From positions 1-64,000 of the forward strand of contig DAHVAR010000197.1 of NCBI GenBank assembly GCA_027314515.1: DNA of 64,000 bases, read 5' to 3'. Position numbers and translations under genes: made by a program. Origin of the DNA: Actinomycetota bacterium. GTDB taxonomy: Bacteria; Actinomycetota; Actinomycetes; Streptosporangiales; Streptosporangiaceae. Under the pieces are notes generated by a model. The model saw only the letters and a list, made by a program, of their open reading frames with translations, was not told the origin of the DNA and did not search any database. Of this stretch, positions 5,715 to 21,201 are shown piece by piece (position 1 is the first letter of the stretch; every line of letters starts with the position of its first letter).

Positions 5715-6911
5715 TCAGCCCGCCATCCGGTCCGCCACAGCCGCCTGCCGCGCCGCGATGCGCGCGCGATATTCCTGCGTACTGATCCGCGACCTGTCGT
5801 GATACGGCAGCAGCTCCGGCAGCCGGGCGAACTCCACCACCTCGGCCGCCGGCCCGTCCGCCTCCGTGAGGTCCCTGGTCAGCCGCTGCCAGCGAAGCTG
5901 CACGTAGCCGCGGGTCCGCCCGGTGAGCTCAAGCCAGTTCGCCACGCCAGGATCGCGCTCGGTGATCACGAACCGCAGCATGCCGTCCGGGTCGGCGCGG
6001 GCCTGATCGGCGGTGAGGCTGGTCTGGTGGTTGATGTAGTCAAGCGAGATGTACCACTGGCTGCCGAGTTGGATGCCCTGGTAGGGCGCCACGTCCCGGT
6101 CGGCCGCGGGTACCGTCACGATCATCGCCTGGTCGGGGCTGAGGTCGAAGTGGCCGACCGAGGAGAACTGGGTGGCCAGGCCCCCCGGCGTCCGGCGCGG
6201 CGGCGTCAGCGTGTTCACCGGCTCGGTCAGGTAGAACCATTCCGGGAAGGCCAGGAACGTCCGCAGCCGGGACAGCAGTATCTTGCCCGCGACCCGGTAG
6301 CGCTTGGCCAGCAGCGCCTCGTCAGGCGGCGGCGGCGCGGCACCGACCTTGTCCGCCCGCTGTATCCGCAGCGTGCCGCGCCGCTCCCTGGCCCAGTCAC
6401 TGTAGACCTCGCGGACTGCCAGCATCGCCGAGCCAGGCCCGAGCGTGACATAGCTGGCCGGCCCGCCAGATCCCGGCCGGGCAGCCGGCTTGCGCGGGCC
6501 GAGGCGCAGCCCGAACGAGCCGTCCGGGGAGATCTGCAAGCTGCGGTCGTCGAACGCGGTCAGGCTGTCCGGCACTTGCACCGGTGAGTAGTCGCCATTG
6601 AGTACCTGGAAGCTGAGGTCGGTTGTCGTCCCGCGCTGCCCGGTGACGATGTACTCGGCGTCGTCGCGCAGGTATGCGTGCAGGTACAGCGTGTCCGGGT
6701 TGTCGAGGCCCAGCTTGGTGTACGGCCCGGTGGACTGGACGAAGTACGGGAAGTCGCGCTGGTAGGCCCAGGCCAGGTGCAGCGAGGCCTGGATGCTGCC
6801 GGCCAGGTAGTCATAGCCTTCGGCCAGGTCCTGATCGGTGCGGACGTGCGGCGCGGTGGCGATGATCTTCTCGGCCTCGGCGACCGCCTCGGCGAACGAC
6901 TGGGTTAGCAC
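5715..6911 (-). CDS. DUF1214 domain protein
   Basis: The middle and C-terminal parts match DUF1214, with N-terminal ASLHLAWAYQRDFPYF and GLDNPDTLYLHAYLRDDAEY, then LQISPDGSFGLRLGP and MLAVREVYSDWAR. The best start is the GTG at 6911, eight bases after the stop of the NTF2-like gene with GAGG upstream, giving 398 residues; the longer open frame overlaps that gene. No signal peptide is visible. The biochemical function of DUF1214 is not known; in actinomycetes it often sits near lipid or steroid catabolic genes, which fits its neighbours here. Confidence 0.78.
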   Translation of the reverse strand: MLTQSFAEAVAEAEKIIATAPHVRTDQDLAEGYDYLAGSIQASLHLAWAYQRDFPYFVQSTGPYTKLGLDNPDTLYLHAYLRDDAEYIVTGQRGTTTDLSFQVLNGDYSPVQVPDSLTAFDDRSLQISPDGSFGLRLGPRKPAARPGSGGPASYVTLGPGSAMLAVREVYSDWARERRGTLRIQRADKVGAAPPPPDEALLAKRYRVAGKILLSRLRTFLAFPEWFYLTEPVNTLTPPRRTPGGLATQFSSVGHFDLSPDQAMIVTVPAADRDVAPYQGIQLGSQWYISLDYINHQTSLTADQARADPDGMLRFVITERDPGVANWLELTGRTRGYVQLRWQRLTRDLTEADGPAAEVVEFARLPELLPYHDRSRISTQEYRARIAARQAAVADRMAG

Positions 6912-6918
6912 GGCGACC

Positions 6919-7401
6919 TCAGCTGACCTGCTTGCGCGCCCACATATTGCCGGTGAAGCGCAGCGACGGGGTGTCGTCAAGCGAGCACATGGTCTCGTAG
7001 ATCCGCTGGTAACCGGTATGCGATATGCGCCACTGGCCATCCGCGCCGCGCTCGTAAGTGTCCTCGTAGAACGCGGCTCCCTTGATCAGCACTCGGTGCT
7101 CGGTGGCGATGACGGTGTCCTCGAACGACCACGTTCCCGATGCCTTATCGCCGTCGATCTTGATCTCTGGCTGCCCGCAGCGGTGCACGGTGATGATCTC
7201 CGGCCCGAGGCTCCGGCGCAGGTAGCCGACGATGTCGTCGCGGCCGCGCAGGTTCAGCGGGCGGCCCGCCGCGTGCGTCCCGTAGTCGGCGCTGGCAGCC
7301 GCGGTGAACACGTCCGCGATCTCGTCCCACAGCTTCAGGTCGACGCACCGCAGGTACCGGTACTTCACCTGACGGATCTCTTCCAGCGCGGCAAGGTCCA
7401 T
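6919..7401 (-). CDS. NTF2-like / SnoaL-like protein
   Basis: The 160-residue protein begins MDLAALEEIRQVKYRYLRCV and contains the cone-shaped NTF2 fold signature KYRYLRCVDLKLWDEIADVF, then GRDDIVGYLRR and WRISHTGYQRIYETM. ATG 7401 is preceded by GGAGG at good distance, so the much longer open frame is not the gene. Members are isomerases, dehydratases or ligand binders acting on polycyclic or steroid substrates. It is the promoter-proximal gene of the minus-strand run that continues through DUF1214, the SDR and the sulfotransferase. Confidence 0.88.
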   Translation of the reverse strand: MDLAALEEIRQVKYRYLRCVDLKLWDEIADVFTAAASADYGTHAAGRPLNLRGRDDIVGYLRRSLGPEIITVHRCGQPEIKIDGDKASGTWSFEDTVIATEHRVLIKGAAFYEDTYERGADGQWRISHTGYQRIYETMCSLDDTPSLRFTGNMWARKQVS

Positions 7402-7524
7402 GTCGTCCCGCCTCCGGATCTGATTGACTTCCAACTGCAAACAAGAACACGTTCTACTCCAGCCGGTCAACCCGTGCGCGCTCACTTGCGGGCTCGGCAG
7501 CCGGCTGACCTCGCCGGAGGTTAG

Positions 7525-8403
7525 GTGCGCTTCTGCTACGCAGAGTCGATGACGGACCCGTCCTATTACGCGCCGCTGGCCACCGCGGCGGAGGACGCCG
7601 GGTACGACTCGATGGTGATCCCCGACAGCATCTGCTACCCGGCGCAATCCGACAGCGCCTACCCGTTCAGCCCCGACGGCAGCCGCGAGTTCCTGGAGGA
7701 CAAGCCGTTCCTTGAGCCGTTCTCGCTGATCCCCTTCCTCGCGGCGGTGACGCACCGCCTGAGGTTCATCACGTTCGTGCTCAAGCTGCCGGTCCGTCAT
7801 CCGGTGCTGGTTGCCAAGCAGGTCACCTCGACCGCGGTGCTGACCGGTAACCGGCTGGTTCTGGGCGTGGGCTCCAGTCCGTGGCGGGAGGACTACGACG
7901 TGCTCGGCGTGCCGTGGCAGCGGCGCGGACAGCGGATGGACGAGTCGCTGGCCATCCTGCGCGGCCTGTCGGCGGGCGGGTACTTCGAGTTCCACGGCCA
8001 GCTGTACGACATCCCGGCCATCAAGCTGGCGCCGGTCCCGACCGCGCCGGTGCCGGTGCTCATCGGCGGTCATGGCGAAGCGGCGCTGCGCCGGGCCGCG
8101 GCGTCCGGCGACGGCTGGCTGCACGGCGGCGGCGACCCGGCCGACCTGCCCGGCCTGCTGACCCGGCTGGCCGGGCTGCGCGCCGAGTACGGGACTGCGG
8201 CCCGTCCGTTCGAGGTGCACGTGATCTCAGCCGGCGCCTACTCACCGGATGGCATCGCCAAGCTGGCGGATCAGGGGGTCACCGATGTCATCGTCGGCTT
8301 CCGCTGGCCGTACCAGGCCGGCCCGGACACCCAGCCGCTGCAGTCCAAGCTGGACAGCCTGCGCAAGTACGCCGACGACGTGATTGCCCGTTCCCGGTCG
8401 TGA
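7525..8403 (+). CDS. LLM-class (probably F420-dependent) oxidoreductase
   Basis: The 292-residue TIM-barrel protein starts with GTG 7525 after GGAGG at 7516. Luciferase-like features include AAEDAGYDSMVIPDS near the N-terminus, AVLTGNRLVLGVGSSPW in the middle and VPVLIGGHGEAALRRAA further on. Such proteins use F420H2 or FMN to oxidise or reduce aldehydes, alcohols or lipids. It is divergent from the NTF2/DUF1214/SDR/sulfotransferase run with a 123-bp shared promoter region, so the five genes may act on the same substrate. Confidence 0.9.
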   Translation: MRFCYAESMTDPSYYAPLATAAEDAGYDSMVIPDSICYPAQSDSAYPFSPDGSREFLEDKPFLEPFSLIPFLAAVTHRLRFITFVLKLPVRHPVLVAKQVTSTAVLTGNRLVLGVGSSPWREDYDVLGVPWQRRGQRMDESLAILRGLSAGGYFEFHGQLYDIPAIKLAPVPTAPVPVLIGGHGEAALRRAAASGDGWLHGGGDPADLPGLLTRLAGLRAEYGTAARPFEVHVISAGAYSPDGIAKLADQGVTDVIVGFRWPYQAGPDTQPLQSKLDSLRKYADDVIARSRS

Positions 8404-8445
8404 TCCTTCGGGGTACGCAGGTGCTGGCAGGCACGGCCCGCCGGG

Positions 8446-9660
8446 TCAGGTGAGCGGGCCGCCGGCCAGCCCGCCGGCCAGCTCGGCCACCAGTTCCCGC
8501 GGCAGGCCGTGCGTATCGCGCAGGAACTCGTAGTCGTCTTCGGTCAGCCGCCCGGACGGGTACAGCCTTGTCAGCACCGAACGGCCGCGCCGCAGCAACC
8601 CGGCGAACTTCCGCTCCTCCGACAGCAGCACGCCGCGCACGACCGCCGGATCGGCCGCCAGGCCGAACCGCTCGCCGGTGTCGGCTATCAGGTCTGACGG
8701 CAGGTCGCCCAGGGTCAGGGAGTCCTCGCCGCCGCCCCACAGTGCCGCCCCGTCGCATCCGCTCCATAGTGCGGTCAGGGAACGCCGGACGAGCCGCCGC
8801 AGCACGTACCCCCGCCCGGCGCTGGACGGCAGGACCCCATCTGCGATCACCACGACGGACGACCGCAGATGATCGGTGAGGATCCGCACGGATCGCTCAC
8901 CGGGCTGCCACAAGCCGGGCAGCACCGCAAGCCACGGTGCGAACAAGTCGGTCTCGAACACCGAGCCGGCCCGCTGAGCGACCATGAGCAGTCGTTCCAG
9001 TCCCATGCCGGTGTCGACGACCGGCCGGGGTAGCGGCGACAGGCTGCCGTCCGGCTCCCGCAGGTAGCGCATGGTGACGTGATTCCACAGCTCCACCCAG
9101 CGCGGATCAGTACTTGGCCGGCCGGCTGGCGGCCCGTCCCCGGTCCACGCGAAAATCTCCGAGTCCGGCCCGCACGGCCCGGTCGGCCCGTTGGACCACC
9201 AGTTATCCGTCAGCAACTCGACCGGAAGGCCGAGCTCCTCCCAGGTCTGCACCGCCTCGGTGTCCGGCCCGACCGGGCCGTTGCCGCCGAAGACGGTGGC
9301 ATGCAGCAGCTCCGGGTTCAGTCCGAAGTGGTCGCAGATGAGCTCCATGCCCCACCGCAGGCTCTGCGCACCACCGTAGTCGCCCAGGGACCAGGAGCCC
9401 AGCATCTGAAACACGGTCAGGTGCGATCGATCGCCGACTTCTTCCAGGTCGGTAGTCCGCAAGCAGCGCTGCACGCCGGTCAGCCGCCGTCCGAGCGGAT
9501 GCGGCGCGCCCGCCAGGAACGGCGTCAGCGGGTGCATCCCGGCCGAGGTGAACAGGACCGGATCGCCCGGCTGCGGCAGCAATGTGCTGCCGGCCAGCAG
9601 CCGGTGCCCGCGGCTGACGAAGAAGTCGGTGAATGTCGAGACGGTCTCGGTGGTGTTCAT
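8446..9660 (-). CDS. Stand-alone alanyl-tRNA synthetase catalytic-domain protein
   Basis: The 404-residue protein aligns with only the class II catalytic half of AlaRS. Motifs visible are LPQPGDPVLFTSAGMHPLTP, the motif 2 region GVQRCLRTTDLEEVGDRSH with FQMLGSWSLGDY, GPTGPCGPDSEI, the motif 3 strand DTGMGLERLL, and a final LTEDDYEFLRDTHGLPRELV. It stops there: the tRNA-recognition, editing and C-Ala domains of an approximately 880-residue AlaRS are absent. It is therefore unlikely to be the housekeeping enzyme. It may activate an amino acid for a carrier, a tRNA minihelix or a metabolite. The ATG at 9660 has GAGAGG upstream. Confidence 0.85.
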   Translation of the reverse strand: MNTTETVSTFTDFFVSRGHRLLAGSTLLPQPGDPVLFTSAGMHPLTPFLAGAPHPLGRRLTGVQRCLRTTDLEEVGDRSHLTVFQMLGSWSLGDYGGAQSLRWGMELICDHFGLNPELLHATVFGGNGPVGPDTEAVQTWEELGLPVELLTDNWWSNGPTGPCGPDSEIFAWTGDGPPAGRPSTDPRWVELWNHVTMRYLREPDGSLSPLPRPVVDTGMGLERLLMVAQRAGSVFETDLFAPWLAVLPGLWQPGERSVRILTDHLRSSVVVIADGVLPSSAGRGYVLRRLVRRSLTALWSGCDGAALWGGGEDSLTLGDLPSDLIADTGERFGLAADPAVVRGVLLSEERKFAGLLRRGRSVLTRLYPSGRLTEDDYEFLRDTHGLPRELVAELAGGLAGGPLT

Positions 9661-9979
9661 GGCACGTGCGCCTCTCGGTGTCGGGGCGCCGGGAAGCAGC
9701 TGCCGGCCAGGCCACTGAGCGGGCGGATTGATCACGAGCGCCGGCGAGCCGTTCGCGGTCGCCAGCGGATGGGAAGAATCAGTCAGCGGCAACCGGCGAG
9801 CTGATAGCTCGCGCGGCCGTGCTGGTGCGCACGCCACGGGTGCGCTTGCAGCTGATCTCCACGACAGCAACAGTAGCCGGGACATCGATGCCAAGAACAC
9901 TGCTTTTTCCGGGAACGGGCGCTCTCGGCCAGGCCGGTCGGGCCGGCGGCGCCGACTCACCTGAAGGGATCTGCGCGGA
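9661..9979. other. Divergent promoter region
   Basis: This 319-bp gap separates the heads of the AlaRS-like gene (minus) and the DUF4232 lipoprotein gene (plus). I looked for a T-box (the conserved tRNA-acceptor-binding bulge sequence) on the minus strand and did not find one. Purine-rich ribosome sites lie at each edge; nothing else is recognisable. Confidence 0.5.
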
Positions 9980-10585
9980 ATGAAACCGTTCCTGCCCGTC
10001 ACCCTGGCCGCGATCGGCCTGGAGATCTGCGGGTGCTCGGGCACCAGCCCGGACGCCCGGCCAGCGCGCACTGTCACCATCACCGCTCATCCCGCGACTA
10101 GCCGGCCGGCGGCGGTCACGCCAACTCCGGGGCCGTCCACGTCCGTGGCCGCCGCGGGCTGCCGCACTAAGAACCTGACCGCAACGGCGGTATCGCCGCA
10201 GGGCTCCGCCGGCGGCCTGCAGCTGACGATCGTTTTCCAGAACACCGGCACCGCGCCGTGCACGCTGGCCGGCTACCCCACGATCACTCAGGCCACCGGC
10301 GCTCAGGCCGCAGGGCCGGGGACCAGCGTCGGTCAGCCGGCCGCCGAGAAGCCGGCGGCACCGCGCACGGCAGTGACGCTGCCGCCGAACGGTGTCGCCA
10401 GCGCCCGCCTGCAGATCGCCAACTCAGCGAACTACCCGGCGAGTACCTGCAAGCCGGTCAAAGCCACCTCGCTAGCTGTGGTGCCACCGGGCCAGCAGAC
10501 CGCGCTGCACGTCGAGTTCGGCACGACCGCCTGCACCGGGAGCGCAAAGATCATGACGGTGACGCCCGTGCAGCAGGGCAGCTGA
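9980..10585 (+). CDS. DUF4232 lipoprotein
   Basis: The 201-residue protein begins with a short hydrophobic export signal ending in a lipobox-like GLEICGCSG, so it is probably lipid-anchored outside the membrane. A threonine/proline-rich linker follows, then a DUF4232 beta-sandwich from about residue 60, recognisable by CRTKNLTATAV, VFQNTGTAPCTLAGYPTI and the terminal ACTGSAKIMTVTPV. Four cysteines could form two disulfides. The family is abundant in actinomycetes; its function is unknown. Confidence 0.85.
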   Translation: MKPFLPVTLAAIGLEICGCSGTSPDARPARTVTITAHPATSRPAAVTPTPGPSTSVAAAGCRTKNLTATAVSPQGSAGGLQLTIVFQNTGTAPCTLAGYPTITQATGAQAAGPGTSVGQPAAEKPAAPRTAVTLPPNGVASARLQIANSANYPASTCKPVKATSLAVVPPGQQTALHVEFGTTACTGSAKIMTVTPVQQGS

Positions 10586-10624
10586 TTACAGCAGCGCGAG
10601 CGGCTGATCACAGCAGCGCGAGCA
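10581..10624. repeat. 22-bp imperfect tandem duplication spanning both convergent stop codons
   Basis: Copies at 10581-10602 and 10603-10624 differ at two positions. The first contains the TGA of the DUF4232 gene and the second contains the TGA of the convergent phosphotransferase gene. Confidence 0.75.
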
Positions 10625-11468
10625 GCCGCTCGGCCTGCCGCCGCTGCGTGCCGGGCGGGTTGCGCGAGCTTGCCGCGCCACCCGGGTGCAGATGCAGCAG
10701 CCAGGACAGCGCGGCCAGCCGCCGGCAGTCAGCCAGCCGGGAGCGCTCAGCCACCGTGAGGTCGAAAGCGCGGAGGAACTCCTCGCCGTCCAGGCCGCTG
10801 TCGCTCCAGGCCGACAGATGCTCGGCCAGGCACGCTAGTTCGAAGGCGCGGTCGCTCCGGCCAGAGTCCTCGAAATCGACGATCCGGACCCGCTCACCGT
10901 CCCAGAGAAAGTTGGCGAGGTTAGCGTCGCCGTGCCCGAACACAGCTGTCAGCCATGGCCCGCCAGCCGTGGCTCGGCCGGGTCCCGGCTGGCTGTCCTG
11001 ACCGCCGCCGAGGCTGCCGCTATCGCCGACCGCCCAGGATAGCCAGCTCAGCCCGGCCGCCTGAGCCTTCTTGACGACCGGGTCGTGGCCGGGATCGTGA
11101 TCCCGGGCGGCCAGCTGCCTGACGATACTGACAAGCTGGCCCTCGTTTCCTGCCTCGCCCGGCAGCGGGGCGACGCGGCTTACCGGCACGGACTGCCATA
11201 GCTGCCCGACCGCGCGCACGAGCGCCGACAGCTGCTCAGCGGTCAGCGGCTGGCCGCCGAGCGGCTCGCCCGGCAGCAACGACATCTCGATCACCGGAAG
11301 GTCAGCCGACAGGTCGGCGGCGATGGGCTCCGGCGCAAGGCCGGGCGCGTGCTCGGCCAGCAGCGTCAGTGCCCGCCACTCGCGATCCGGCTCGTTACGG
11401 CCGGCGTGGACGAAGCGCTTGACCACTACCTGGCGTGCCGCATCCACGGTGACCTGGTGGCTGAGCAC
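10608..11468 (-). CDS. APH-family phosphotransferase
   Basis: The 286-residue protein shows the aminoglycoside/choline kinase-like core: VVVKRFVHAGRNEPDREWRA for the ATP lysine and helix C, the catalytic loop FGHGDANLANFLW and the metal-binding IVDFEDSG. The substrate is unknown; such proteins phosphorylate antibiotics, sugars or metabolites. A glycine/serine-rich insert (about residues 150-170) precedes the catalytic loop. The GTG start at 11468 lies 6 bases after the stop of the FabV-like gene, so the two genes are probably one operon. Confidence 0.85.
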   Translation of the reverse strand: MLSHQVTVDAARQVVVKRFVHAGRNEPDREWRALTLLAEHAPGLAPEPIAADLSADLPVIEMSLLPGEPLGGQPLTAEQLSALVRAVGQLWQSVPVSRVAPLPGEAGNEGQLVSIVRQLAARDHDPGHDPVVKKAQAAGLSWLSWAVGDSGSLGGGQDSQPGPGRATAGGPWLTAVFGHGDANLANFLWDGERVRIVDFEDSGRSDRAFELACLAEHLSAWSDSGLDGEEFLRAFDLTVAERSRLADCRRLAALSWLLHLHPGGAASSRNPPGTQRRQAERLLALL

Positions 11469-11474
11469 CGAACG

Positions 11475-12713
11475 TCAGCCAGCCAGGTCCGACTGTGCCG
11501 CCGGTGAGCTCCGCGCTGGCGTCGCGGGCCACGGCAGGTCAACCTCGACCGGCTGGCTGTAGTCGATCCCGCTGACTCCGAAGCCGTACAGCCGCCACAT
11601 CTGCGTCTTGAACCAGTCGGTGTCGGCTAGCCCGCCGAGCAATTCCTCATCGGTTGCGGCCCACCGCTCCTCCAGTGCCGCCTGGATGTGCGGTGCCATT
11701 TCCCAGTCGTCCAGCCGGAGCCGGCCGCCGCTGTCGACGTCCGCGCCGCCCTTGCCGGTCAGGTGATCCCAGAGGCGGACCGATTGCCGCATCGGCGACT
11801 CAGCGGCATCGCCCGCCACCGCCCGCAGCAGGCTCAGGTAGAGCGAGATGCCAGGGATTGCCAGCGAGGACATCGTCACGGCTGCGCAATTGACCGAGGT
11901 CAGCGCTCTGCCGCCGGAGCGCGACAGCACCCCGGCGGTGAGCAGGCCAGCGGTGGCTTCGAGGTGATCCTTTGCCCGGCCGATGGTTCCCTCGCGGTAG
12001 ATCGGCGCGGTCAGCTTGGAGCCGACATAGGTCAGCGCGGCCGTCCTGAAGCCAGGGGCCAGCAGATCACGCGCCGCTAGGTCGGTCACCCAGTCCGCCC
12101 AGTCCTGCCCGCCCATGACCTTGATCGTGCCGTCGATCTCCGCGTCGGCCGCCGGCTCGAGGGTCGCCTCGCGCAGCACGACGTCGCGGTCGACCACGAC
12201 GTTCCTGGCGCTGTATGCGGCTCCGATCGGCTTTACCGCAGCGTGGTAGACCGTGCCGGTAAGGGGGTCAGTTCGCCGGGGTGCCGCGACACTGTAGATC
12301 AGCACGTCGATCGGGCCGAGCGCGGCCGCCGCGCGGTCCAGAACGGCGGCCCGGAGCGCCGGGTCGAAGCAATCCCCGTTCACCGGCTCGAACGACAGCC
12401 CTGCCGCTGCCGCCTGCCGGGCCAGCGCAACGGTCCGGTACCAGCCGGCCGACGCCGAGCGGCGCGCGGTCGCCGGCCGCTCAAAGCAGACGCCGATCGT
12501 CGCGGCGGCGTGACCGAACAGCCCGGCCGCGGCTGCCGCCAGCCCGTAGCCGCCGCTGCAGCCGATCACTAGCACCGCCGGGCCGCGCCGGGAGGCGGGC
12601 ACGGGCGCGGTTACCTCCCCGACCATCTCCTCGACGATCCGTGCGCAGCCCGCAGGATGCGAGTCAAGCAAGAGGAAGCCCTTGCCCTCGGGGCGAAGCA
12701 CGCGCGTGACCAT
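11475..12713 (-). CDS. fabV: FabV/TER-type trans-2-enoyl reductase
   Basis: The protein (about 412 residues from ATG 12713; an ATG at 12725 is also possible) follows the FabV pattern: KGFLLLDSHPAGC at the N-terminus, Rossmann loop VLVIGCSGGYGLAAAAA, VLIYSVAAPRRTDP, and the active-site YREGTIGRAK, which keeps the Y-x8-K pair. FabV reduces enoyl-ACP or enoyl-CoA with NADH and is intrinsically triclosan-resistant in other bacteria. Here it is paired with a phosphotransferase gene rather than with other fatty-acid genes, so its role as a main fatty-acid enzyme is unclear. Confidence 0.85.
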   Translation of the reverse strand: MVTRVLRPEGKGFLLLDSHPAGCARIVEEMVGEVTAPVPASRRGPAVLVIGCSGGYGLAAAAAGLFGHAAATIGVCFERPATARRSASAGWYRTVALARQAAAAGLSFEPVNGDCFDPALRAAVLDRAAAALGPIDVLIYSVAAPRRTDPLTGTVYHAAVKPIGAAYSARNVVVDRDVVLREATLEPAADAEIDGTIKVMGGQDWADWVTDLAARDLLAPGFRTAALTYVGSKLTAPIYREGTIGRAKDHLEATAGLLTAGVLSRSGGRALTSVNCAAVTMSSLAIPGISLYLSLLRAVAGDAAESPMRQSVRLWDHLTGKGGADVDSGGRLRLDDWEMAPHIQAALEERWAATDEELLGGLADTDWFKTQMWRLYGFGVSGIDYSQPVEVDLPWPATPARSSPAAQSDLAG

Positions 12714-12956
12714 GCAGCCATCCATTCCTCGGCGCGGCCAGCCACGCCGGCCGAGGGTGGCCGACACGGCGGACCGCGCCGGGCGCCAGTCAGGCGCGCG
12801 ACCGCAACCGACGCCCGATATTGGCGGCAGCCTAGCGGCGCATAATCCTGGCTCGCGGGTTGACGTGCCGGTCAGCAGCCGGAATTTGCGGCCTGACCCG
12901 CGGGCTCGGCACCGCGCAAAGTGAGCCTCACGGTGCTCACCGGGGCCAGGCCAGCG

Positions 12957-14268: not shown

Positions 14269-14517
14269 CTAGGGGGCACTGTCTTCACTGCCGAATTTCT
14301 CCAGCGGGTCGGTCCACGGGCTGACATCGACTGTGCGATGGCCCCGGGACTCGATGACCAGCACCGTGGCACCCCTCGGCAGCGGCTCCGGTGACCAGGC
14401 GATCAGCGCTTCTGAGCCGCCCCGGACGCTGACCAGTACCTCGCCTGGCCCCGCTTGGCCGCGGGTGGCGATGGTGAGTTTCCCGATGCACCCGATGAGC
14501 ACCTCGTCATGTGCCAT
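14269..14517 (-). CDS. Small soluble NfeD-like (OB-fold) protein
   Basis: The 82-residue protein resembles the C-terminal OB-fold of NfeD: VLIGCIGKLTIATRGQAGPG, VLVSVRGGSEALIAWSPEPL and VLVIESRGHRTVDVSPW. It lacks the membrane helices of full NfeD proteins. Position directly upstream of the flotillin gene on the same strand supports the pairing; NfeD and flotillin proteins are known to work together. I am fairly but not fully sure of the family assignment. Confidence 0.7.
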   Translation of the reverse strand: MAHDEVLIGCIGKLTIATRGQAGPGEVLVSVRGGSEALIAWSPEPLPRGATVLVIESRGHRTVDVSPWTDPLEKFGSEDSAP

Positions 14518-14853
14518 TCAGACCTGCCTGCCGGGCCCGTCTATCTCGCGGTCTCGCGCGTTGGCACTCATTATCCTCGCGAGCGTGGCCGGCGCAGGCG
14601 TGCCGCGTTCCCGGAAGTACTCTGCCTGCAACGGGAACCGCGGGAATAGCGCTGCCCGGGGACGGGTTGTAGCTGTTGCCGATGCGTTGTGTCCCCCGGG
14701 CCGCAAAAACCGCCGTCGCGGAATACCGTCAGGCTGGAGCCGTGACGCGCTACTCGCCGAGAGGCGACCTCGCACCGGCAGGCACGCCCTCGCGAGCATT
14801 TGCTCCGGGGGCGTTGTCAGTTCCCGGCACGGCAGTTCCCGGCACGGCAGTTC
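14518..14853. other. Gap with a 15-bp triplicate repeat
   Basis: No convincing gene. At about 14819-14863 a 15-bp unit CAGTTCCCGGCACGG is repeated twice exactly and once degenerately, overlapping the end of the metal-receptor gene. An open frame on the minus strand (14518-14799) has no recognisable similarity. Confidence 0.5.
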
Positions 14854-15732
14854 TCAGCACAGCGATCCGGACCGGACCCTGGCCGCGGCGAGCTGGCGTC
14901 GCAGCACGGCCGGGGCCTCGGTGAGCGAAGGCCCGTACCAGGTCAGGTGCCGGCCGCTGACCAGCGCGGTACGGCTGCCGGGGAAGGCCTCGGGGCCGTC
15001 CGACGCGGAGAACCGGTACGGCTCGTCCGGCAGCACCACCAGGTCGGCCCCGGCACCGCGGAGCTCCGCGATGCCGATCCTCGGATACCGGTCCCGGTGA
15101 CCGGCGTACACATTGGTGATGCCGAGCCTGGCCAGCAGATCACCGGCGAAGGTGTCCCGGCCGAGCACCATCCACGGCCGTCGCCAGATCGGCACTACCG
15201 CGGCCACGCGTCCGGCTGCTCCCGCGCCCTCGAGCCCGTGCCTTCCGGCGGCGGACGGATCCCGCCATGCCTGCCCGGCGGCATCGAGCCAGGCCGGCTC
15301 GGGCTGGCGGCAGGCCAGCGTGATCATCCGGCGCAGCGATGCGAGGGCCTCCGGCAGGTCGCGGATCCTGGTGACCCAGACGGACTGGCCGGCCGAGCGA
15401 AGCGCGTCGAGGTCTGGCAGCCTGTTCTCCTCCTCGTTGGCCAGCACGACGTCGGGCCGGAGCGCCACGATCGCGGCGATGTCCGGGTTCTTGGTGCCGC
15501 CGATCCTTGTCACGGTCAGGTCGGCCGGATGCGCGCACCAGTTGGTGGCGCCGACGAGCAGGCCCGGCGCGCAGGCCGCCACCGTCTCGGTCAGCGACGG
15601 AACGAGCGACACCACCCGCCTGATCAACGGCCCTATCGGCACCGGCAGTCCCAGATCATCGGGCACGTAAACCAGCGCACCTGCCGGCTCGCCCATACCG
15701 CCCCCAGCCGCACGGTCCCCGTCGATCGCCAT
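14854..15732 (-). CDS. TroA-like helical-backbone metal receptor (no signal peptide)
   Basis: From ATG 15732, which has a GGGGGG ribosome site, the protein has 292 residues. It resembles BtuF/TroA-type receptors: RRVVSLVPSLTETVAACAPG, GATNWCAHPADL, RIGGTKNPDIAAIVALRPD and VLANEEENRLPDL. Unlike transport receptors it has no signal peptide or lipobox, so it is probably cytoplasmic, as in a known actinobacterial subgroup. It is divergent from the siderophore-interacting protein gene, which hints at a role in metal or siderophore handling. Confidence 0.82.
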   Translation of the reverse strand: MAIDGDRAAGGGMGEPAGALVYVPDDLGLPVPIGPLIRRVVSLVPSLTETVAACAPGLLVGATNWCAHPADLTVTRIGGTKNPDIAAIVALRPDVVLANEEENRLPDLDALRSAGQSVWVTRIRDLPEALASLRRMITLACRQPEPAWLDAAGQAWRDPSAAGRHGLEGAGAAGRVAAVVPIWRRPWMVLGRDTFAGDLLARLGITNVYAGHRDRYPRIGIAELRGAGADLVVLPDEPYRFSASDGPEAFPGSRTALVSGRHLTWYGPSLTEAPAVLRRQLAAARVRSGSLC

Positions 15733-15860
15733 CGATCGCCCCCCATTGTGGCGGCAACCGCCGGACTGCACCAGCCTCCGGCGAGGTCAGCTTGCTCGCA
15801 TACGCTAAGTCTCCGGCTCCCAAGGAAGAATGCTGACCGCCAAGGAAGGTCCCCGATTCG

Positions 15861-16661
15861 ATGACTGACGCCGTGCCCCAGACCGTCGTAGCCAGCCTCG
15901 ATGACCCGTTCGCCCAGCTGACCGGCCCGCTCGCGGAAACCAGGAACCTGCACTTTGAGGTGGCATCCTCGACCAGGCTCACGCCGCACATGCAGCGGCT
16001 GGAACTGACCGCCGCGGAACTCGGCGGATTCAGGTACGCCCCCGGCCAGGACGTCATGCTGCTGGTGGCCGTTGACGGCCGCAAGCCGCTACGGCGCCGT
16101 TACACGGTCCGCTTCCACGACCCGGCCCGCCGGCTGCTGACCATCGACGTGGTCTTGCACGGAGACGGCCCCGGCGAGCGCTGGGTGCGGTCAGCCAGGC
16201 CCGGCGATCGTATCGAGGGCATCGGGCCGCGCGGCAAGATCTCCACGAACCCGGAGGCCGACTGGCATCTGTTCATGGGGGACGAGGCCGCGCTGCCGGC
16301 CATCCTGGCGATGGCCGAGTCGCTTCCCGGTGCCAGCGAGGCGACCCTGGTGGTCGAGGTACCGGAGGCTGCCGACGAACAGGAGTTCTCGCCGGTAGCC
16401 CGGACCAGGGTCAGCTGGCTGCACCGGCTAGGCCGCCCGGCCGGCGATCCGGCTACCTCGCTGCTGGTTGCCGAGGCCGCCGACGTCGAGCTTCTGCCTG
16501 GCCGCGGGCACGCGTATCTGCTCGGCGAGGCGACGGTGGTGCTCGCGCTTCGCGAGCGCCTGGCGGCTCGCGGGCTGCCGCAGGACCAGATGTCGCCCAA
16601 GGCCTACTGGGGCCGGGGGCGCGCCAACGCGGGGCACGGCGAGCCAGCCAAAGACGCCTGA
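15861..16661 (+). CDS. Siderophore-interacting protein (FAD-dependent ferric-siderophore reductase)
   Basis: The 266-residue protein belongs to the ViuB/SIP family. The FAD site RRRYTVRFHD, the central GDEAALPAILAMAE and the C-terminal NAD(P)H-site signature KAYWGRGRANAGHGEP are clear. These enzymes reduce ferric siderophores in the cytoplasm to release iron. Together with the iron-box-controlled permease at 1.6-2.5 kb it suggests iron supply as one function of this region, although no iron box is visible upstream of this gene. Confidence 0.92.
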   Translation: MTDAVPQTVVASLDDPFAQLTGPLAETRNLHFEVASSTRLTPHMQRLELTAAELGGFRYAPGQDVMLLVAVDGRKPLRRRYTVRFHDPARRLLTIDVVLHGDGPGERWVRSARPGDRIEGIGPRGKISTNPEADWHLFMGDEAALPAILAMAESLPGASEATLVVEVPEAADEQEFSPVARTRVSWLHRLGRPAGDPATSLLVAEAADVELLPGRGHAYLLGEATVVLALRERLAARGLPQDQMSPKAYWGRGRANAGHGEPAKDA

Positions 16662-16708
16662 CCGCCATTATCTGGCCAGCTAACGGCCGTTCTTTCGCAA
16701 TAGGCACG

Positions 16709-16744
16709 AAGCTGCTCCATAATGAGAAGCTGCTCCATAATGAG
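16709..16744. repeat. 18-bp perfect tandem duplication carrying a -10-like hexamer
   Basis: AAGCTGCTCCATAATGAG occurs at 16709-16726 and again at 16727-16744. Each copy contains CATAAT, close to the sigma-70-type -10 consensus, 50-70 bases upstream of the SpoIIE phosphatase gene. The gene may therefore have two alternative transcription starts. Confidence 0.8.
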
Positions 16745-16785
16745 GGCACCAGCCGTGGTCTGCTCTGCCGGAAAGGAGCGCTTCG

Positions 16786-18846
16786 GTGGCATCGGCGGTT
16801 GCGGCAGAGGTCTCAGCGGTACTGGCCAACACCTCAACCCGAACGCTCATGCTCGGAATCGACAAGGCTGGCCGCATCCGTCAGCACGATCGCGGGGCCG
16901 GCGACGTGCTGTCGGCCGAGCCCGGTGCGCTGATCGGCACCGAGCTCGGCACCCTGCTGGCGCTGCCGGACGGGCCTGCCGCAGCCACCCTCCAAGGCCT
17001 CATCGACGGGGCGTGCTCCGATCGCGAGAGCACCACCGTGCTGTCATTCCGGACGGCCAACGGCGCGACCGCCGAGGCTGTGGTCACTGTCCAGCCCATC
17101 AGGGCGACCGATCCTGAGCTGGCCGCCCAGGTCATCATGCGGATAGCGCCGCCCATGCAGGAGCGCTTCCTGGATCCGGCGGTGATGCGGCACCTCATGG
17201 TCGACGGGGCGGTCCGGCGGATTGGCGGCGCGCTGGACATTGACCAGATGGCGCCTGAGCTGATCAACATCATCGTGCCTCATTTCTGCAACGCAGCCGG
17301 CCTGGTGGTAATGGAGAGCCTGGTCGGTGAGGACGAATTCCCGTCCGAGTCGCTGGATGGCACGCAATTGGTCCGGCGGCTTGCCGTTGCGCATGACGAC
17401 GGTGAGGCGGCCTGGGACGCCGCATTCCCCACCGGCGAGATCCTGCGCTACCCGCCCGGCACGCCGTACACCAGGTGCATGGACTCCGGGCATCCGGTCT
17501 GCGAGGTCGTCAGCCGCGATAGCGCTGACGCGATGGCCGCCTCCTGGATCCGCCGGCCGGTTGCCGACTTGCTGTCCGGCGTCTCCATGCTGCTGCTGCC
17601 GCTGATCGCCAGGGATGTAATGCTCGGCTTTTTCGTCTGCGTGCGCCGCGTCGGGTTCCGCCGGTTCGATGCCTACGACGTCGAGATCGGGATGGAGTTC
17701 GCGGCCAGGGTGGCGATCTTCATGGACAACGCCCAGCGATACAGCCGGGAGCGAGCTACGGCGCTGACGCTGCAGCGCAGCATGCTGCCGACCGGGCTAT
17801 CCGCGCCATCGTCGGTCGAGGTAAAGCACCGCTACCTGCCGGGAAGCAAGCTCATCGAGGTCGGCGGCGACTGGTATGAGTCAATCGCCCTGCCCGGCGG
17901 GCGGGTAGCGCTCGTGGTCGGTGATGTCGCCGGCCACGGCGTGCGGGCCGCGGTCACCATGGGACGGCTGCGGACCGCCATTCATACCCTGGCGATGCTG
18001 GAACTGCCGCCGGCTGAGACCCTGCAGCAGCTGAACGAGCTGATGCAGGAACTCGGCGTCCGCGAACCGCACTTCGCGACGTGCGTCTACGCGATCTTCG
18101 ACGCTGTGTCGGGAACGTGCGAGGTCGCCTCGGCTGGCCACCTGCCGCCGCTGCTGGTGCGGCCGGACGGCAGCAACGAGCTGCTCGACGTGCTGCCAGC
18201 GCCACCGCTCGGAGTCGGCACCGGCCTGATCCAGAGCCGCGTGCTCGACATCGCGGACGGCAGTCTTCTCGTGCTGTACACCGATGGACTGGTGGAGAAG
18301 CGCAGCCGGGATATCGACGAGGGCCTCCGCCGGCTGCGGGAGATCTTCGGCCCTGGCTCGGCGGAGCAGCCGCTCGAGGACTTGTGCCGGGCCACCCTGG
18401 CTGGCGTGTACGCCGACGAACACCGCGACGACATCGCGCTGCTGGTGGCGCGGTTGCGCCGGATCCCGGCCGATCACGTCGTCACCTGGACGCTGCCCTC
18501 CGAGCTGACCTCGGCCAGCCGGGCCAGGTCGCTGATCCGGCGGCCGCTGCGGCGCTGGGGCCTGACCGACCTGGTGCCCACTGCCGAGTTGCTGGTCTCG
18601 GAACTGGTCACGAACGCCGTCCGGTACGCCCAGGGAAAGATCGGCCTGCGCTTGATACTGGAGGGCGGGCTGGTCTGTGAAGTGCTCGATGACTCGGCGG
18701 CACTACCGCGATTGCGCCACCCGGACGATTCCGATGAACGCGGCCGTGGCCTGCAGGTGGTGAGCCAGCTAGCCCAGCGCTGGGGTGCCAGGCGGGCCGG
18801 CGTCGGCAAAGTCGTGTGGTGCGAGCTGCCGGTTCCCTACTCCTGA
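16786..18846 (+). CDS. PAS-GAF-SpoIIE phosphatase with C-terminal anti-sigma-type kinase domain
   Basis: The 686-residue protein has a PAS-like sensor (1-125), a GAF domain (about 145-325), a PP2C/SpoIIE phosphatase (about 335-545: VGGDWYES, VGDVAGHGVRAA, ASAGHLPPLL, LYTDGLVEKR) and an HATPase of the RsbW type (about 555-683: LLVSELVTNAVRYA, DERGRGLQVVSQLA). Both regulators of an anti-sigma-factor antagonist switch are thus fused in one protein. GTG 16786 has AAGGAG 7 bases upstream. The gene ends 10 bases inside the convergent ABC ATPase gene. Confidence 0.92.
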   Translation: MASAVAAEVSAVLANTSTRTLMLGIDKAGRIRQHDRGAGDVLSAEPGALIGTELGTLLALPDGPAAATLQGLIDGACSDRESTTVLSFRTANGATAEAVVTVQPIRATDPELAAQVIMRIAPPMQERFLDPAVMRHLMVDGAVRRIGGALDIDQMAPELINIIVPHFCNAAGLVVMESLVGEDEFPSESLDGTQLVRRLAVAHDDGEAAWDAAFPTGEILRYPPGTPYTRCMDSGHPVCEVVSRDSADAMAASWIRRPVADLLSGVSMLLLPLIARDVMLGFFVCVRRVGFRRFDAYDVEIGMEFAARVAIFMDNAQRYSRERATALTLQRSMLPTGLSAPSSVEVKHRYLPGSKLIEVGGDWYESIALPGGRVALVVGDVAGHGVRAAVTMGRLRTAIHTLAMLELPPAETLQQLNELMQELGVREPHFATCVYAIFDAVSGTCEVASAGHLPPLLVRPDGSNELLDVLPAPPLGVGTGLIQSRVLDIADGSLLVLYTDGLVEKRSRDIDEGLRRLREIFGPGSAEQPLEDLCRATLAGVYADEHRDDIALLVARLRRIPADHVVTWTLPSELTSASRARSLIRRPLRRWGLTDLVPTAELLVSELVTNAVRYAQGKIGLRLILEGGLVCEVLDDSAALPRLRHPDDSDERGRGLQVVSQLAQRWGARRAGVGKVVWCELPVPYS

Positions 18847-19583
18847 CGGGTTACCAGGCCCGGCACGCCGGCAGCGTGCGGACCAACGCCGCGTCCGCTG
18901 GTGTCCTGCTTGATCGACAACTTCCCGTTCTTCATCACGCCGAGGCGCTGCGCCCGGCGCGCCACAGTGCTGTCGTGCGTGACCACCACCAGGGTCAGTT
19001 CGTGGTCCCGCCACAGTTTCTCCAGCAGGCCGATGATCTCGTCCCTGGTGCCCTCGTCAAGGTTTCCGGTCGGTTCGTCGGCCAGCACCACCTCGGGCTC
19101 CTTGACCAGCGCCCTGGCGATGGCGACCCGCTGCTGCTGACCGCCGGACAGCTCCGACGGCAGGTGCCGCGCCCGGTCCGCGAGGCCAACGTCGGCCAGC
19201 GCCGCCGCGGCCCGGCTGTGCCGCTCGGCGGCCGGCACGCGCAGCGGCACCAGGGCCGCCTCCACGTTTTCTTGCGCATTCAGCGTCGGAACGAGGTTGA
19301 AGGTCTGGAACACGAAACCGATCGACTCGGCCCGCACCTTAGTGACCTGGCTCTCCCGCAGTTGCGCCAGGTCGGCGCCGGCCTGCTCGCCGAACTGGAT
19401 GCTGCCCGACGTCGGACGGTCCAGGCCGCCGAGCATCTGCAGCAGCGTTGACTTTCCGTGGCCGGTCGGGCCCTGGATGGCCAGCCACTCGCCGTCATCG
19501 ATAGTCACGTCCACACCCTGCAGGGCGTGCACCACGCCACGGCCCTTCTGGTAATCCTTCGTAACGCCGGTCAGCTTGTACAT
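18837..19583 (-). CDS. ABC transporter ATP-binding protein (MacB/LolD type)
   Basis: The 248-residue protein has Walker A GPTGHGKST, the signature LSGGQQQR and Walker B VVLADEPTG followed by the switch histidine in VVTHD. The subfamily pairs with FtsX-like permeases that perform mechanotransmission or lipid/peptide export rather than classic import. ATG 19583 (MYKLTGVTKDY) with GGGAGAG upstream is the best start; the open frame continues upstream without similarity. The partner permease is 110 bases upstream on the same strand. Confidence 0.93.
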   Translation of the reverse strand: MYKLTGVTKDYQKGRGVVHALQGVDVTIDDGEWLAIQGPTGHGKSTLLQMLGGLDRPTSGSIQFGEQAGADLAQLRESQVTKVRAESIGFVFQTFNLVPTLNAQENVEAALVPLRVPAAERHSRAAAALADVGLADRARHLPSELSGGQQQRVAIARALVKEPEVVLADEPTGNLDEGTRDEIIGLLEKLWRDHELTLVVVTHDSTVARRAQRLGVMKNGKLSIKQDTSGRGVGPHAAGVPGLVTRQE

Positions 19584-19692
19584 GACGACTCTCCCTGGAC
19601 GGCCGCGGCTCTCGCGGAACTCAGTCGGTCGGTGCTCGATAGATGCGAGCCCGGACGGGGCAGGCCCGATCGGCATGCCGCAACGGGCGTGC

Positions 19693-21201
19693 TCATTCGA
19701 CCCTCGCCAGCGCTGCTGCCGGGCGCAGCCGGGCCGCGCGCCAGCCGCCGAGGCCGCCAGCGATCAGGCCGCCGGCAATCGCGAGAACAACTGCCGCCGC
19801 GATGGCGCCGCCGCTGACTGCCGGACTCAGGTGCACGTGCACGGTCGGCGCGGCCGGGGCCAGGGCCGAGCGGAAGCGGCCGAGCCCGCCGCCGCCGGTG
19901 AACCCGCCACCGCCAGGGAGTCCGCCGCCGGTGAACGTCCGGGCGCCGCCGGGTGTCGCGCTGCCGGTAGTCAGGGGTACACCGGCCGTCAGCGACGGTG
20001 AGAAGTGGCCGACGAGGGCGGAGCCAAGGTAGCCGAGCCCGACGCCGACTGCGCCGCCGGCGATCCCGACAGTGAGGGCCTCCCCGACTACCTGGCCGAC
20101 GACTCGACGGCTCGTCCAGCCGAGGGCCTTGAGCGTGCCGAACTCCCGCACCCGGCGTGACACGGCCGCCATGGCCAGCAGGCTGGCCAGCAAGAACGCC
20201 GCGGCTAGCACCGCGACCGCGAGCCACTTGCCGAGGTTGCTGGCCAGGCTCGACGCGCTGGCCACCGACCCGGTGAGCTGCTTGGCCAGCTGGCTCTGGT
20301 TGGTCACCGTAGTGGACGGCAGCGCCGTCTTGATCGCGCTGGTAACCCCGTTGATGTTGGGCGCGCTGTTCGCCGCGACGTAAATGGTGTTGACCTCGCC
20401 CTTCAGACTCTTGCCCTGCGAGGTGCCAAGGGCCTGCGCGCGCGCCAGCGGAATGTAGACGTCGGTGGCGTTGCTGGAGGCCGATTCGCTGATGATGCCA
20501 ACGACCTTGAAGCTGGTCTTAGCCAGCGTCACTGTCGAGCCAACCTTCAGCTTGTTGCTAGTGGCGTAGTTAGAGTCGACCACGGCCACGTCTGAGCTGG
20601 CGTCCGCGGCGGCCAGCGTCCGGCCGGTGACCAGCTTGGCGTTGCTCAGCGGCCCGAGCGCTGCCGCGTTCCCGCTGACGTCGACGCCGTCGACGCTGAT
20701 CGGGGTCGGAATGCTGCCAGCGCCCCTGAAGGGCCCGCCGCCGCCGAACCCGCTTGAGCCGGAGCTTGTGCTCGGGATGGTAACGCTGACCTTGGTATCG
20801 GTCAGCGTCAGCCCGCCTGCGGCAGCGGCCACATTGTCAAGCTTGCTGACCTTGACGACATCGCTATCCGGCAGCGCGCTGAGCCCGACGGAAGTGAGGT
20901 TGTCCACTTTCACCTTGGTTCCGGCCTTGGGTCGCTTACCGGAGCCGCCGCCGCCGAACTGGCCGCGGAAGTTGAACCCGCCGCCGCCAAACCCTGCCCC
21001 GAACGTCGGGGCCTTGGTCACGGTGATGTCGGTGTCCTGGCCGTAGAGCGAGTGGAGCACCTCGCCCTGGGCGTTTTGCACTCCGTTAGACAGCGCGGTG
21101 ACGGTGATGACCAGGCCAATGCCGAGGGCTAGGCCAAGGGCGATGACGCTAGCTTGCCGCGCACGGCGGCGCAGCTCACGTCCCAGATAAGTAAAGAACA
21201 T
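19693..21201 (-). CDS. FtsX/MacB-type ABC transporter permease with glycine-rich insert
   Basis: From ATG 21201, with a perfect AAGGAG site, the protein has 502 residues: one N-terminal helix (ASVIALGLALGIGLVITVTA), a large extracytoplasmic MacB-like domain, then three helices, the first ending near SRRVREFGTLKALGWTSRRV, the conserved cytoplasmic loop of the FtsX family. A glycine-rich stretch (about residues 68-95) and a second one before the last helix are unusual and could be flexible linkers. It works with the ATPase downstream. The squalene-cyclase-like gene lies 130 bp upstream on the same strand. Confidence 0.9.
   Translation of the reverse strand: MFFTYLGRELRRRARQASVIALGLALGIGLVITVTALSNGVQNAQGEVLHSLYGQDTDITVTKAPTFGAGFGGGGFNFRGQFGGGGSGKRPKAGTKVKVDNLTSVGLSALPDSDVVKVSKLDNVAAAAGGLTLTDTKVSVTIPSTSSGSSGFGGGGPFRGAGSIPTPISVDGVDVSGNAAALGPLSNAKLVTGRTLAAADASSDVAVVDSNYATSNKLKVGSTVTLAKTSFKVVGIISESASSNATDVYIPLARAQALGTSQGKSLKGEVNTIYVAANSAPNINGVTSAIKTALPSTTVTNQSQLAKQLTGSVASASSLASNLGKWLAVAVLAAAFLLASLLAMAAVSRRVREFGTLKALGWTSRRVVGQVVGEALTVGIAGGAVGVGLGYLGSALVGHFSPSLTAGVPLTTGSATPGGARTFTGGGLPGGGGFTGGGGLGRFRSALAPAAPTVHVHLSPAVSGGAIAAAVVLAIAGGLIAGGLGGWRAARLRPAAALARVE

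Follow-up and report, generated by a model that had tools for sequence, protein, structure and literature searches.

The window analysed here is a 64,000-nt stretch of contig DAHVAR010000197.1, from an actinomycete of the family Streptosporangiaceae. On its minus strand, at positions 8446–9660, we identified an alaS2-like gene that codes for a truncated alanyl-tRNA synthetase (AlaRS) of 404 aa, recognised by its ORF, Pfam, NCBIfam and phmmer matches and a predicted structure. Upstream of this gene, on the same strand, lie a leader peptide ORF, arms of alternative RNA structures and a promoter with a WblC/WhiB7-like box. The short gene is flanked by a convergent luciferase-like monooxygenase gene and a divergent DUF4232 gene; genes for a phosphotransferase and a FabV-type reductase lie beyond them. 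The phosphotransferase gene (APH type, 10608–11468) adjoins the DUF4232 gene; it was also present in genomes G001, G002, G003 and G008 and was undetected in the closest relative, G006. A 441-aa ORF at 5715–7040, which had no Pfam match, was conserved in G006 and G008.

The only Pfam match of the 404-aa protein was PF01411 (260 bits, E = 4e-77). Neither the editing domain (PF07973, tRNA_SAD) nor DHHA1/C-Ala gave a Pfam match in it, and its scores for the NCBIfam models TIGR00344 (alaS, 270 bits) and NF002436 (279 bits) were below the cut-offs of 457 and 529 bits, respectively. These results agree with a preliminary description of the locus, which had reported an AlaRS-like open frame without editing or C-Ala domains. 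The same description had also denied the protein a tRNA-recognition domain and ended it together with the catalytic half of AlaRS, a limit that was set too early. In the phmmer comparison, residues 3–394 aligned with residues 4–411 of the 441-residue E. coli AlaRS catalytic fragment. A structure predicted from an alignment of 31 sequences (pLDDT 88.3, pTM 0.87) matched AlaRS structures over its whole length by both Foldseek and structural alignment; with structure 3hxu, 385 residues were aligned (Z 39.4, rmsd 3.1). Because residues 1–401 of the model align with residues 2–418 of 3hxu, the recognition domain appears nearly whole, and the protein is predicted to comprise the catalytic domain and most of the helical tRNA-recognition domain, lacking the final ~25–30 residues of the latter. 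An insertion of ~10 residues after the GYVLRR helix (window ~8731–8760, protein ~301–310), confined to the window protein and that of its closest relative, G006, fell in a low-confidence part of the predicted structure.

The ORF is a real gene under purifying selection, since orthologs of near-constant length occur elsewhere and dN/dS was 0.18–0.32 in 12 ortholog pairs. It is not the only AlaRS gene of its genome: a second, full-length alaS, which the preliminary description had proposed to look for, is present (G000:C11) as a 923-aa frame with PF01411, tRNA_SAD and DHHA1 matches, the last slightly below its cut-off. The genome also has a free-standing AlaX-like frame (C123), which scored 213 bits to AlaXM, below the cut-off of 300.

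We then compared the active site of the short protein with that of other AlaRSs. Residues R68, D71, F84, W155, N193, V195, D216 and R223 did not vary among the 26 family rows. By counting along the phmmer alignment, all but W155 were assigned to E. coli R69, D76, F90, N212, V214, D235 and R242; W155 is the Trp of the DNFW motif. Roles for AlaRS Arg68, Phe89 and Arg232, which include the motif 2 Arg and the Phe and Arg that stack on ATP, and for Asp225 (equivalent to E. coli Asp235), which holds the alanine amino group, are given in PMC12143591. Judged from these alignments, the ATP and alanine residues of the class II catalytic core appear intact, in line with the preliminary reading of intact class II motifs; the ATP-binding residues, whose loss would have spoken against that reading, are kept (R68, F84 and R223). 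In 48 other AlaRS rows (a set without locus L042 and its duplicate L118), 128 columns showed at least 90% conservation, and 73 of these are kept in the 43 family rows. The Asn and Asp that we take to be the readers of G3:U70 correspond to Ser280 and Asp382 in the window protein. The first position is Asn in 27 of the 43 family rows and is not conserved within the window's genus, and the second is Asp in 38 of 43, with a gap in 3.

The variable Asn is one point in favour of a tRNA-independent alanine activator that loads a carrier protein, peptide or signalling acceptor, the function suggested in the preliminary description; moreover, class II aaRS-like amino acid:carrier protein ligases exist (PMC9437257). 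However, the tRNA-binding domain is described as lost from these known ligases (PMC9437257), whereas the helical domain is retained here, and no carrier-protein or acceptor gene travels with the short gene. The idea fails because tRNA recognition is retained, and we consider it the least probable of the readings weighed here. Of the preliminary interpretation, the truncated paralog of AlaRS, its intact active site and the presence of a full alaS elsewhere in the genome stand, but the proposed activator role does not, as the tRNA-recognition domain is kept and the upstream control described below points to a supply of alanyl-tRNA.

A related possibility is a transferase that moves alanine from Ala-tRNA onto a small molecule, as does AcmF of ascamycin biosynthesis, which likewise consists only of stand-alone AlaRS aminoacylation (catalytic) and tRNA-recognition domains (PMC12945691). 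AcmF uses Ala-tRNA as donor and, according to the same source, has lost most of the ATP-binding residues and the key Asn and Asp (N219Q and D232E), whereas N193, D216 and the ATP residues are invariant in the short family. Conserved biosynthetic neighbours across genera were not seen, and control by an Ala-rich leader fits an aminoacyl-tRNA synthetase (aaRS). Because the ATP and alanine residues are intact, this idea fails as well, and we regard it as very improbable.

The gene neighbourhood gave no further hint of an acceptor, as the preliminary description had noted for the adjacent genes. The short gene appears monocistronic, so that its context yields no acceptor, and its flanks differ from genus to genus and, within Streptomyces, at most of the loci. 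The only neighbour common to the window's genus and Streptomyces, or to a genome of another genus (G027), was a generic ABC-transporter ATPase at varying distances. Of the 19 Streptomyces loci compared, 5–6 formed a group with the same flanks and a few pairs had some genes in common, most likely reflecting close relationship. Annotated plasmid contexts of the gene also differed from one another (regions H3, H5 and H6, which carry no annotation, stand outside this comparison). In a Streptomyces cyaneofuscatus plasmid (L214), Type I-E CRISPR-Cas genes (14492–21176) were located near the short gene.

We further checked the occurrence of the short form in other actinomycetes. Within the window's genus it was found in 8 of 9 genomes (the window's own counted), the ninth genome being 72% complete, and it was also present in G027. 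In Streptomyces, a genus label that for this set rests on plasmid records and similarity, it occurred in 75 of 392 genomes. A class-wide survey detected it in 12 of 394 genomes, three further families among them, and one MAG of Micromonosporaceae carries it. The scan of contigs for AlaRS returned at least 80 loci and is therefore no census. In addition, eight Streptomyces/Streptantibioticus plasmid records, all large plasmids, carry the gene, in four cases under the label 'alanine--tRNA ligase-related protein'. The protein is 387–408 aa long in 61 of 68 fetched copies (a number that includes several second fetches of one genome), and 4 of the 7 shorter copies run off contig ends. The short gene also undergoes loss, since one Streptomyces genome (G463) retains the leader with a frameshifted and partly deleted copy.

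In a tree of 169 rows (quick method, midpoint root, with 6 broken or incomplete short copies omitted), 41 short rows formed one group with an SH-aLRT of 100. This group nests on the side that holds nearly all AlaRSs lacking C-Ala, apart from the resident actinobacterial alaS. An origin by duplication of the resident alaS was ruled out, as the family groups with the C-Ala-less enzymes. The latter (NF002436/PRK01584 type, from Spirochaetes, Patescibacteria, some archaea and Clostridia) are, among the matches listed, the nearest full enzymes by both tree and score, and they have Trp and Asp signature residues in common with the short family. However, most are ~580–615 aa long, whereas the short family stops ahead of any editing domain; of two that we inspected, L067 has a tRNA_SAD match and L163 extends well past the recognition domain. 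A phage search gave only AlaRS-like matches below 60% identity. A different AlaRS of the same phylum, of 441 aa, was observed in genome G212 (L042, 1471–2793, and its duplicate L118); it ends after a near-complete tRNA-recognition domain and has no editing domain match. In the tree it joins the short family, a placement that long-branch attraction may explain.

The distribution of the family is compatible with an AlaRS selected for insensitivity to natural inhibitors, for example alanyl-sulfamoyl-adenosine of the ascamycin type, rather than for backup capacity; enzyme and switch would be the same. The spread is patchy (75 of 392 Streptomyces), large plasmids (8 records) carry the gene, its contexts are unrelated and its ancestry is foreign. 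Near the active site, the family also has substitutions of its own (positions 83, 89, 96, 97, 194 and 196). The second TrpRS of S. coelicolor, an auxiliary aaRS behind a leader peptide as in the present case, is under attenuation control. Duplicated aaRSs are established resistance determinants and this TrpRS, which protects against indolmycin, offers a parallel, although its amino acid is Trp and not Ala, and resistance has been established there and not here (PMC9437257); attenuators of trpS have been described (PMC1262725, PMC8079986). On the other hand, we recognised no AlaRS-inhibitor cluster beside the gene, several of the distinctive residues (e.g. Trp90, Trp154 and Asp166) also occur in the C-Ala-less relatives, and WblC control points to general translation stress. 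Selection for drug insensitivity is therefore an unlikely primary explanation.

The upstream region, which is absent from the preliminary description, contains a leader peptide ORF at 9779–9862 on the minus strand (27 aa, GTG start, TGA stop, MEISCKRTRGVRTSTAARAISSPVAAD). We compared 42 distinct upstream regions of the family and 8 further leader-bearing loci (7 plasmid regions and the Micromonosporaceae MAG). A short leader ORF was present in 42 of 42 regions, ending 105–158 nt ahead of the gene, and in all 50 aligned loci (50/50). The peptides have the C-terminal consensus TA[TA]ARATSSP[VA]A[AD][AV], and each of the 42 contains 5–9 Ala. Because Ala is common in GC-rich genomes and several of the Ala codons lie inside helices, conservation of these codons is no independent proof of alanine sensing.

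An RNA model of the leader matched the window at 9718–9826 with 92.3 bits. It found the leader once each in 67 of 295 Streptomyces genomes, namely 66 gene-bearing ones and G463, the genome with the broken copy; the remaining 9 gene-bearing Streptomyces genomes also have the leader, which gives 75 of 75. Of 41 relatives, 8 had the leader, namely the gene-bearing members of the window's genus, and the other 33 gave no match. Three further families have it, in one genome (G887) weakly, at 45 bits. When 51 sources, mostly other alaS loci, were searched, every match of at least 92 bits preceded a short gene and the best other match scored 20.3 bits, the positives in this search stemming from genomes of the training set. 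An extra weak match of 30.6 bits was noted at G777:C28:17451-17555. A search of window positions 7500–12800 against Rfam (E ≤ 1) gave only a sub-threshold miRNA match at 10978–11057, which we took as chance.

The leader ORF overlaps the arms of two mutually exclusive structures in an alignment of 50 leaders (48 distinct). RNAalifold proposed hairpins 1:2 and 3:4 with 19 pairs in total, in which 98.2% of cells held standard pairs compared with 16.1–52.1% in slid-partner controls; the alternative helix 2:3, with 10 pairs, had 98.3% of cells paired compared with 12.5–55% in slid controls, and the shuffle counts for both pairings ignore relatedness. In the window, all on the minus strand, hairpin 1:2 occupies 9790–9819 (arms 9819–9807 and 9801–9790) and is supported by the RNAalifold consensus, the pair counts, the minimum free energy fold of the window leader and the RNA model match. 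The antiterminator-like helix 2:3 (9755–9796) pairs 9796–9787 with 9764–9755 over 10 bp, and the terminator-like hairpin 3:4, without a U-run, lies at 9741–9765 (RNAalifold; 99.5% of helix 3 cells paired). Folded by itself, the window leader adopts 1:2 and 3:4, at −69.7 kcal/mol (z −3.0).

One alignment column illustrates the competition between the two states. Column 35 pairs with column 10 in one state and with column 75 in the other, and the triples at 10/35/75 were A-T-A in 23, G-C-G in 14, G-T-A in 6 and others in 5 of the 48 rows; G-T-A makes a wobble pair first and a Watson-Crick pair second. On the tree, these triple labels require at least 9 changes. As G-C-G is essentially one clade, the double changes represent few events, and a single switch of a whole clade, passing through wobble intermediates, makes up most of the difference between G-C-G and A-T-A. 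Pair 35:75 is broken in 4 of 48 rows. A simple terminator scan of the leader found no U-run (intrinsic) terminator, so early termination is a step that we infer; leaders without a U-run have been reported in S. lividans (PMC8079986).

The leader could also be a ribosome-arrest or drug-sensing peptide, or act on translation, instead of being a transcription attenuator that reads alanine codons. The strongly conserved peptide core ARATSSP and the missing U-run terminator are consistent with this, and whiB7/wblC itself is described as having a drug-sensing uORF (PMC10727445, PMC11550727). However, the two overlapping RNA structures account for most of the conservation of the core, and some core residues vary (V/A, T/A and A/D) while Ala stays abundant (5–9 per peptide in 42/42). 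We therefore favour attenuation by alanine codons and consider a peptide-sensing or translational leader doubtful.

A −10 element, TACTGT, is located at 9870–9875 on the minus strand, 7 nt ahead of the leader GTG, and TANNNT was found at this place in 41 of 42 regions. Because the −10 lies immediately ahead of the leader start, the transcript is probably leaderless. Further upstream, at 9895–9909 on the same strand, is a WblC/WhiB7-like box, GAAAAA, followed after 3 nt by a −35-like GTGTTC. The WblC site is reported as GAAAWY, 3 nt upstream of the −35 (PMC7157823), and the box in the window has one mismatch to it. In a scan of the range 56–28 nt ahead of the leader start, exact GAAAWY was present in 18 of 42 upstream regions (0.5 expected from shuffles), and when a single mismatch was tolerated, 40 of 42 regions had the box (6.2 expected), mostly between −44 and −48. 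The genome of the window also encodes a WhiB-family protein that ends in an AT-hook, RKRPRGRPRK, which we take to be the hallmark of WhiB7. Together, the leader attenuator and the WblC-like box point to alanyl-tRNA supply under translation stress. The combination of truncated synthetase, leader and stress promoter occurs in at least five actinomycete families.

Two isolated reports from Streptomyces appear to concern the same gene. In S. coelicolor, alaS2 (SCO7600) is a second AlaRS gene beside alaS, as in the window's genome; its expression depends on WblC and tetracycline, unlike that of alaS (SCO1501), and the proposed role is to keep translation going under antibiotic stress (PMC7157823). 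The WblC site given in that paper is the one matched upstream here. The part of the paper that deals with alaS2 makes no mention of truncation, missing editing or a leader, and the window gene belongs to another genus and family. In S. lividans, RNA-seq revealed alaL (SLIV_01313, MNVIGRNIFATARATSSPVAAA) before 'alaS' SLIV_01315, and the leader type was called previously undescribed (PMC8079986, Table 4). The alaL peptide matches the family leader. That account concerns one genome and a leader of 'alaS', and its entry on alaL mentions no truncated paralog, no cross-species alternative pairing and no WblC. In genomes G562 and G687 we found a peptide identical to S. lividans alaL directly ahead of short-AlaRS matches, and for this reason SCO7600 and SLIV_01315 are probably the same short gene and members of the present family.

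We therefore consider the window gene, which belongs to another actinomycete family, orthologous to the alaL-led alaS2 of Streptomyces, and read it as an auxiliary, editing-free AlaRS that is induced by translation stress and opened further by a shortage of alanyl-tRNA; we give this reading a probability of roughly 0.77. WblC/WhiB7, induced by ribosome stalling, would activate the promoter ahead of the leader, and RNA polymerase would transcribe the short ORF rich in Ala codons. When Ala-tRNA is plentiful, a ribosome at the stop codon would cover arm 2, hairpin 3:4 would form and transcription would end early. With scarce Ala-tRNA or a stall, the ribosome would stay on arm 1, arm 2 would pair with arm 3 and the gene would be read. 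The enzyme would then adenylate alanine and charge tRNA-Ala, a supply that the stressed cell would presumably need for translation to continue, and serine or glycine mischarging may be left to the full-length AlaRS and the free-standing AlaX of the same genome.

The gene, the leader and WblC control have each already been reported for Streptomyces. As far as our literature searches show, which covered mainly open-access sources and in which neither a truncation of alaS2 nor exclusive leader pairings were found described, the truncation, the conservation across families and the paired structures are new. WblC-dependent alaS2 of S. coelicolor and the alaL leader of S. lividans are joined here into one conserved module, which makes it testable why antibiotic-stressed actinomycetes need extra Ala-tRNA. 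Such a module fits reports of the importance of WhiB7 in alanine starvation that are cited in PMC10727445 and PMC11550727. It also raises the question of how an AlaRS without proofreading affects fidelity under stress. A more speculative extension, which we put forward tentatively, is that the editing-free AlaRS of actinomycetes is mobile, has a foreign ancestry and is switched on only if active WblC coincides with a shortage of alanyl-tRNA. During antibiotic stress, the enzyme might supply Ala-tRNA, resist natural mimics of Ala-adenylate and let serine or glycine in at Ala codons, amounting to a regulated state of mistranslation and resistance.

A second AlaRS-like match of another kind was observed in G033 (C403:1564-2175), beside the full alaS of that genome; it covers residues 4–205, has an internal stop and is possibly a decaying paralog.
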